A DNA stretch of 64,000 nucleotides from [Borrelia] lusitaniae. Lineage in GTDB: Bacteria; Spirochaetota; Spirochaetia; Borreliales; Borreliaceae. The stretch is from positions 434,001 to 498,000 of the forward strand of contig NZ_CP124050.1 in the NCBI RefSeq assembly GCF_030440365.1, in the 5' to 3' direction. Each line of letters begins with the position of its first letter. Position 1 is the stretch's first letter. A program made the position numbers and the translations under genes. Below the pieces are notes generated by a model. The model did not search any database. It saw nothing but the letters and a program-made list of their open reading frames with translations, and was not told the DNA's origin. Positions 10,242 through 11,740 of this stretch are shown here, piece after piece.

Positions 10242-11740
10242 AGAAAAAGAGATGATCCAATCGCACTTTCCAACACAAACCACTTTGTTATGACTTAACT
10301 CTTATCACTAAACATACCTTAAATACCTTCCCCCCTTACGGGTTAGAATAATAGCTTCGGATATCTTCAACTCGGGTGGTGTGATGGGAAGCGCATATAA
10401 GAGCCGAAAACATATTCAACACATCATTCTGATATACGATTACTGGCGATTCCAACTTCATGAAGTCAAGCTTCAAACTTCAATCCGGACTGAGACCTGC
10501 TTTATGTTTCACATCACTGCTTCGCTTTGTACAGACCATTTTAGCGCGTGTATAAGCCCAGAATATAAGGGTTATAATGATTTGAAGTCATCCTCACCTT
10601 CCTACGACTTATCACCGGCAGTCTTACCTGAGTCCCCGCCATTACATGCTGGTAACAGATAACAAGGGTTGCGCTCGTTGGGGGGGACTTAACCCAACAC
10701 TTCATAAGCTGACAATAACCATGAAACACCTTATATAGATCCCAAACGGGAATAATTATCTCTAACTATATCCTATATATGTCAAGCCCTGGTAAGGTTC
10801 CTCGCGTATCATCGAATTAAACCACATGCTCCACCACTTGTGCGGGGGGGGGCCCGTCAATTCCTTTGAGTTTCACTCTTGCGAGCATACTCCCCAGGCG
10901 GCACACTTAACACGTTAGCTTCGGTGCTAACTGTTAGTTAACACCAAGTGTGCATCGTTTACAGCGCAGACTACCAGGGTATCTAATCCTGTTTGCTTTA
11001 TACGCTTTCGTGACTCAGCGTCAGTCTTGACCCAGAAAAGTTTGCCTTCGCCTCCGGTATTCTTTCTGATATCAACAGATTCCACCCTTACACCAGAAAT
11101 TCTAACTTCCTCTATCAGACTCTAGACATATAGTTTCACAGCTGAGCTGTGGTATTTTATGCATAGACTTATATATCCGCCTACTCACCCTTTACGCCCA
11201 ACAATCCCGAACAACTCTCGCCCCTTACGTATTACCGCGGGTACTGGCACGTAATTAGCCAGGACTTATTCATAAGTTAACGTCATCACTTTGTAATTTC
11301 TTACAAAGCTTATTCCTTATTTATAAAAGAATTTTACAATCTTTCGACCTTCTTCATTCACGCAATGTCGATCCGTCAGGCTTTCACCCATTGCTAAAGA
11401 TTCTTAAATACTGAATCCAATAAAAGAGTCTGGACCGTATCTCAGTTCCAGCATGACCGTTCACCCTCTCAGACCAGCTCATTGCCTTAGTAGGCATTTG
11501 CCCTACCAACTATTTAATAAAAAGCGGACTCATTTACAAGCGAAGCTTTAAAGGCCTACTTTCATCAATTAATTAACTTTATTTAATATTGGCTACTATT
11601 TTTAGTAATTATTCTCATTTTATAAATAGACCACCCATTAATGAATAACCCGTTCGCCACTAGATGTATTACTATATCCCGTTTGACTTGCATGCTTACA
11701 ACACACTATCAAAACTAGCACCAAGCTCTTCGCCATTATT
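10242..11740 (-). pseudogene. Decayed second 16S rRNA gene
   Basis: About 1.5 kb aligns from end to end with the intact 16S gene at 12147-13685 but is full of substitutions, mostly GC to AT, plus small indels. Functional sites are gone. The 3' end reads GGATCATCTCTTTTT where the intact gene has GGATCACCTCCTTTCT, so the anti-Shine-Dalgarno is lost. The decoding-site block GTACACACCGCCCGT is scrambled (near 10380-10405). The 530 loop reads GTGCCAGTACCCGCGG instead of GTGCCAGCAGCCGCGG. About 12 bases are missing near 11135. G runs of 7 (10680-10686) and 9 (10844-10852) appear on the plus strand. The upstream leader is also duplicated (11741 to about 11870). It is very unlikely to make working 16S rRNA. 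Confidence 0.9.

Follow-up and report, generated by a model that had tools for sequence, protein, structure and literature searches.

Organization of the rRNA locus in B. lusitaniae

The window is a stretch of 64,000 nucleotides of B. lusitaniae DNA. In minus-strand order its rRNA region consists of an intact 16S rRNA gene, tRNA-Ala and a relic of a second 16S gene, followed by tRNA-Ile, which is encoded on the plus strand, by two coding genes and by two 23S-5S pairs (Table 1). The match of the relic to the Rfam 16S model has an E value of 9.6e-288, with a gathering score of 50. The relic aligns collinearly with the intact gene from the leader through the 3′ end. Hence, the full-length decayed 16S copy between the two tRNAs that a preliminary description had proposed is recovered both by the model and by alignment.

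The relic and the intact copy are 87% identical according to BLAST, and 89.9% identical when 1480 ungapped sites are compared. The base changes run mostly from GC to AT, as described earlier: 112 GC>AT changes stand against 31 AT>GC changes, a 4.1-fold rate ratio, and the GC content is 41.4% in the relic and 46.5% in the intact gene. The alignment also shows changes at all three functional sites that had been listed as lost, which we take to be the anti-Shine-Dalgarno, the 1400/1500 decoding region and the 530 loop. Duplicates within one region have thus had opposite fates, as had been noted before, since the 5S copies are identical and the 23S copies have only 2 differences in 2928 positions. 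The location between tRNA-Ala and tRNA-Ile, the orientation of rrs, the collinear 16S homology, the clear divergence from rrsA and the lower GC content are those of the Lyme-group rrsB pseudogene.

Table 1. Features of the rRNA locus, with positions in the window
Feature	Position	Strand	Evidence
Decayed second 16S rRNA gene (rrsB-type relic), full length	10245..11736	-	RF00177 909.8 bits, model 1-1533; nhmmer E 0
Intact 16S rRNA gene (rrs)	12149..13684	-	RF00177 1541.7 bits
tRNA-Ala (TGC)	11899..11974	-	ARAGORN, Rfam
tRNA-Ile (GAT), reverse-primer site of typing amplicon	9903..9976	+	ARAGORN; primers (PMC4763156, PMC2688082) located in silico
23S rRNA copy 1	4775..7702	-	RF02541
23S rRNA copy 2, 2 differences from copy 1	1528..4455	-	RF02541
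Duplicated 16S leader	11743..11880	-	Leader profile E 3.9e-13; alignment
Remnant of duplicated 3′ processing trailer, most of pairing strand deleted	10215..10251	-	Weak match, E 0.029
Promoter-like site of intact 16S (TTGACA, 18 nt, TAAAGT)	13798..13827	-	10 of 12 matches, as common in shuffled sequence; conserved in species alignment
Low-divergence relic centre (16S positions 366-1357), read as gene-conversion block	10425..11394	-	5.4% vs 18.8% differences

Two smaller features are noted within the relic. A run of nine G is present in positions 10842-10857, where the intact gene has GGGCCCCC; it reflects either slippage during decay or a homopolymer sequencing error. An open frame of 93 amino acids lies antisense to the relic (10381-10662, plus strand), has no sign of being a gene and is most likely due to chance.

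An assembly artefact, which the preliminary description had considered, is an unlikely source of the relic, because 16 genomes have homologous remnants in this position and because the duplication is reported, in a section of PMC12958805, from SMRT-sequenced B. lusitaniae isolates.

Leader, trailer and state of the relic

The claim that the leader is duplicated together with the gene holds. The relic leader keeps the aligned -35 box TTGACA at 11881-11876, and the aligned -10 box TAAAGT of the intact gene is changed to AACCTT. A weak promoter-like match (9 of 12) is present in the relic leader at 11862-11834. For matches like that of the intact gene (10 of 12), shuffled sequence gives about as many, with 11.1 expected and 10 found. 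The leader-trailer stem of the intact gene is strong, with -46.1 kcal/mol compared to -25.9 (sd 3.9) for shuffled sequence. The corresponding duplex of the relic, with -22.1 compared to -21.0 (sd 3.9) kcal/mol, is no better than shuffled. The anti-Shine-Dalgarno, the decoding region and the 530 loop being altered and the processing stem being lost, the relic does not have the features of a functional divergent 16S gene.

We conclude that the relic is almost certainly a dead 16S copy, a pseudogene. The preliminary description had raised a residual role as a possibility. It finds no support, and a role of the B. lusitaniae relic as RNA appears unlikely, because the aligned -10 box and the processing stem are lost along with the functional sites. 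The ends of the relics differ by 0.23-0.44 between species, versus 0.07-0.26 at fourfold sites of two neighbouring genes. In B. burgdorferi, according to passages of PMC3037291, RT-PCR gives no product spanning tRNA-Ala to tRNA-Ile (N40 shown, B31 stated to be identical), data that concern only this species, whose relic has no leader.

Remnants in the Lyme group and in the sister genus

Among 18 genomes of the genus, a 16S match is found in 17 (none in G010) and both flanking tRNAs in 16. The named genomes are those of B. afzelii (G001), B. andersonii (G003), B. burgdorferi B31 (G004), B. bissettiae (G006), B. chilensis (G007), B. garinii (G009), B. lanei (G011), B. maritima (G012), B. spielmanii (G013), B. 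tanukii (G014), B. turdi (G015), B. valaisiana (G016) and B. yangtzensis (G017), and in the sister genus B. recurrentis (G021) and B. persica (G026). The search profile combines 3 functional copies with 8 relics; the relics of eight genomes (G002-G006, G008, G011 and G012) are therefore not part of it. Comparison of the same interval across the Lyme group, as the preliminary description had proposed, reveals relic segments in all 16 tRNA-Ala/tRNA-Ile intervals, B31 included, at the same place and in the same orientation. The same search finds them in none of 18 intervals of the sister genus, long ones included. The reversed-sequence control yields four matches with a best E of 1.

The interval varies in length from 613 to 2029 bases across the 16 genomes. 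In B31 it has 638 bases, of which about 414 are what remains of 16S positions 659-825 and 1083-1350; these collinear segments are detected by blastn at 3.4e-24 and by nhmmer at 9.1e-34 and 6.6e-17. They are located inside the 988-base nested rrs-rrlA typing amplicon. With the published primers the in silico amplicons are 1029/988 bp in B31 and 2317/2276 bp in B. lusitaniae. B. maritima keeps positions 157-551, so that no relic segment is common to all species.

B. chilensis lacks tRNA-Ala at the interval and is thus outside the 16. In its locus L117 (minus strand, about 6760-7005) rrs is followed by 246 bases and then by tRNA-Ile, with relic and tRNA-Ala both absent. Its assembly contains no good tRNA-Ala match elsewhere, and has 32 tRNA matches compared to 33 in two relatives. 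The gap is likely a misassembly or an unassembled tRNA-Ala copy, because losing the sole tRNA-Ala should be lethal.

In the sister genus, the interval is about 3.2 kb long in five genomes (L166-L170, G030-G034). Translation of those of G030 and G034 gives two long frames each, of about 525 and 449 amino acids, presumably encoding a sugar PTS permease and a 6-phospho-glucosidase. In G030-G032, no mag glycosylase was detected nearby. The interval of G028 (L164) has 1565 bases, compared to 274-536 in 12 short intervals of its genus, and contains no 16S match and no stop-free frame longer than 80 amino acids.

A probable single early duplication

A duplicated leader sits close behind tRNA-Ala in 8 of the 16 intervals (E <= 1.1e-4). 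A trailer copy is likewise found in 8 of 16; it is clear in seven genomes (E 1.3e-9 to 3e-4) and weak in B. lusitaniae (0.029). The trailer homology ends at profile position 80-84 in both Eurasian and American species, in eight genomes of the two branches. The B. lusitaniae relic shares its descent with the published B. afzelii copy, as the copy in the B. afzelii genome (G001, identified by a plasmid match) lies at the same place and has leader and trailer homology. No remnant of a second tRNA-Ala, expected if the duplicated unit held this gene, is detected by profile past the relic in 34 intervals. The relics very probably go back to one duplication of the leader, the 16S gene and part of the trailer in the Lyme-group ancestor before the radiation. 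The preliminary description had argued for one old duplication of leader plus 16S, which stands with the refinement that the duplication also took in part of the 3′ processing trailer.

Timing and independence of decay

Shared changes were counted only in columns invariant among 17 functional copies (1484 of 1536), and relic pairs with fewer than 200 common sites were omitted from the pair listing. Across the 28 pairs of eight clade representatives, 977 derived bases are shared, compared to 845.7 expected within base classes. The excess between deep lineages is 3.4% (95% 2.0-4.8), small but above zero. Among close relatives it is 35% for B. valaisiana and B. yangtzensis, 38% for G005 and B. 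bissettiae, 16% for B. tanukii with B. valaisiana and B. yangtzensis, and 64% for B31 and G008; the sister pair B. afzelii and B. spielmanii has only 6%. When all relics are counted, which are not independent of each other, 13 columns carry the same change in at least 75% of them (simulated mean 4.0, maximum 9 of 30). With one relic per clade there are 10 such widely shared columns compared to 6.7 simulated (maximum 12 of 40).

Large deletions track clades. Those of 1-651 and about 876-1076 are common to seven American-type genomes (G002-G006, G008 and G011), and those of about 880-933 and 1230-1242 to B. tanukii and B. valaisiana. Exceptions to this pattern are a 10-base deletion, 1065-1074, with identical bounds in B. 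spielmanii and B. tanukii, shared gaps of up to 4 bases, and gaps that start at 1246 in three lineages and differ in their ends.

The relics evolve at about 5.2 times the coding rate, as calibrated on three pairs (6.5, 5.2 and 5.0), one of which is also among the dated species. Divergence of relic and functional copy at the ends, divided by the value predicted from the time since the Eurasian node, is 0.93-1.21 in seven of eight species and 0.71 in B. lusitaniae. The American values (0.81-1.79; 8.2 in B. andersonii) were dropped as unusable, because the root fell inside the American group. In the tree of relic ends the relics are not united as one clade; support in this tree is weak, and its shape fits little shared history as relics. 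The basal internodes of the Eurasian clade are short, so that a start of decay just before the Eurasian splits looks the same as separate starts.

The near absence of shared decay and the clock ratios therefore suggest that the second copy was intact, or held alike by gene conversion, until about the radiation; that it still worked by then is inferred. Its decay was probably late and separate, affecting at least the American and the Eurasian branch independently and probably further branches as well. The duplication is old, as the preliminary description had supposed, and most of the decay probably dates from about the Lyme-group radiation.

Partial overwriting of the B. lusitaniae relic

In the B. 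lusitaniae relic the centre (P <= 0.005) is much closer to the intact gene than the rest (Table 1). Cold centres are also present in B. afzelii (13.3% versus 23.9%) and B. spielmanii (10.5% versus 29.1%), and no significant one is found in B. tanukii and B. turdi, so that three of the five relics tested have it; the longest identical run is significant in only two of eight. Changes shared by at least three other relics make up 3 of 73 in the B. lusitaniae centre and 35 of 106 in its ends (P 1.4e-6), a contrast that B. afzelii does not have (18 of 63 and 32 of 100). In the tree of the centre the B. lusitaniae relic joins its own functional copy with a support of 87; in the tree of the ends it does not. 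Two bases private to the B. lusitaniae functional gene among the 17, 837C and 1255G, occur in its relic too, and a third, 219A, is absent from it.

A donor-like block, few changes shared with other relics and donor-private alleles are thus found together in B. lusitaniae; of these, the cold block alone reaches significance in B. afzelii and B. spielmanii. We read this as gene conversion, by which the intact gene would later have partly overwritten the centre of the B. lusitaniae relic. The dead copy is full length, as described before, with its centre partly rewritten.

The movement of relic alleles into the working gene was considered as well. Among 64 minority alleles of the functional gene at sites where the relic retains a base, 29 are found in the relic of the same species, compared to 12.7 expected (permutation mean 18.2, P 0.0015). 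This test ignores phylogeny and gives no direction, and the excess is therefore read only as homogenisation.

Discussion

The published wording suggests that the duplication was gained by some Eurasian species only and that B. burgdorferi never had it. A section of PMC12958805, a 2026 paper, lists B. lusitaniae, B. afzelii, B. spielmanii, B. tanukii and B. turdi as having a 16S duplication relative to B. burgdorferi B31, a passage of PMC4370689 gives B. burgdorferi one copy, and a plain BLAST search that uses the B. lusitaniae relic as query recovers a single 16S place in B31. The collinear 16S segments in the B31 interval contradict this at the sequence level; moreover, the large B31 deletions are common to six other genomes, two of which, G005 and B. 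bissettiae, keep the Eurasian-type trailer junction, so that such a gain is hardly conceivable. Separate duplications in different lineages, each decaying later, would agree with the near absence of shared derived changes between deep lineages. The same pattern is, however, explained by conversion between two old copies, of which traces are found, and the identical place and orientation in all 16 intervals together with the common trailer end in both branches make repeated duplication quite improbable.

If, on the other hand, the copy had died long before the radiation and had been decaying ever since, many changes should be shared. The 13 widely shared columns point that way as long as non-independent relics are counted, but with one relic per clade little of this signal is left. 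The excess between deep lineages is far below the 16-64% of close relatives, the deletions are private to clades, and the divergence of most Eurasian relics does not exceed what the time since their own node allows; we therefore regard an ancient pseudogene as unlikely. A live or partly live RNA, either a divergent 16S or a regulatory RNA with its conserved centre under selection, could be read from the cold centres in B. lusitaniae, B. afzelii and B. spielmanii and from the kept -35 box with its weak promoter-like site. Functional-relic differences reveal no comparable cold centre in B. garinii, B. tanukii, B. turdi, B. valaisiana and B. yangtzensis. No part of the relic survives in every species, the functional sites and the processing stem are lost, and the relic ends diverge more than fourfold sites nearby. 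This makes a live RNA extremely improbable.

Based on the sequences, with remnants at the same place in 16 of 16 intervals, a common trailer end, little shared decay, clade-specific deletions and a reset B. lusitaniae centre, the locus would be best explained as a pseudogene from one early duplication with late and separate decay and with later resetting of the centre in B. lusitaniae, an overall account that we consider quite probable. We suggest the following course of events. One duplication would have set rrsB between tRNA-Ala and tRNA-Ile in the Lyme-group ancestor. Gene conversion would then have kept the two 16S copies alike until about the radiation, after which copy B would have been inactivated at least twice, once in the American and once in the Eurasian branch, and probably more often. 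The remains would do nothing as RNA and would form much of the rrs-rrlA typing spacer.

In the genomes seen, it is copy B that is lost each time. In B. burgdorferi the 16S gene and tRNA-Ala form one transcript, as stated in a passage of PMC3037291. Loss of copy A would then endanger the co-transcribed tRNA-Ala and loss of copy B would not. Copy A could perhaps not be silenced without harm for this reason, which we offer tentatively as the cause of the repeated death of copy B. We somewhat favour the view that the Lyme ancestor had two like 16S genes beside two 23S-5S pairs, that the present 1:2:2 set reflects the loss of the same 16S copy several times in parallel around the radiation, and that the B. 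burgdorferi typing spacer is largely the corpse of that gene.

This gives a testable origin for the uneven Lyme rRNA gene set, with one 16S gene and two 23S-5S pairs. A pseudogene decaying without visible constraint also explains the variability of the rrs-rrlA typing spacer in length and sequence. With much of the spacer being a pseudogene under no visible constraint, its alleles would be markers by linkage and are not likely to be causes. Where a species has kept its relic well, 16S assays may also encounter a diverged second target.

Comparison with known systems

The preliminary description had allowed that the relic might be known, and it is indeed in print, for B. afzelii in PMC4370689 and as a B. 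lusitaniae "16S duplication" in PMC12958805. According to the relevant passage of PMC4370689, which cites Ojaimi 1994, rrsB is a pseudogene in B. afzelii, and B. garinii has two copies; the B. afzelii duplication is also noted in a passage of PMC3833655. The B. lusitaniae relic is similar to the B. afzelii rrsB of PMC4370689, a second 16S gene past tRNA-Ala and before tRNA-Ile, with lower GC content and judged non-functional there. However, that rrsB is 77-79% identical to rrsA, while the B. lusitaniae relic, with its centre rewritten, is 87-90% identical. Unlike in that account, with its single copy in B. burgdorferi, remnants are found here in 16 genomes, B31 included.

PMC12958805 deals with the same feature in the same strain, PotiB2T; unlike the present analysis, its section on the duplication leaves aside decay, conversion and the remnants of other species. 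The remnants in B31, other American species, B. maritima, B. valaisiana and B. yangtzensis, the separate decay of the relics and the conversion in B. lusitaniae are not in the published passages considered here. Among the matches listed from the open-licence literature nothing on 16S remnants within the B. burgdorferi spacer was found, and an earlier mention is possible. The published primers of the rrs-rrlA spacer (IGS1/RST) bracket the relic interval, and the relevant passages of PMC4763156 and PMC2688082 treat this typing locus as a plain spacer; in B31, however, about 414 bases of it are recognisable 16S remnants.
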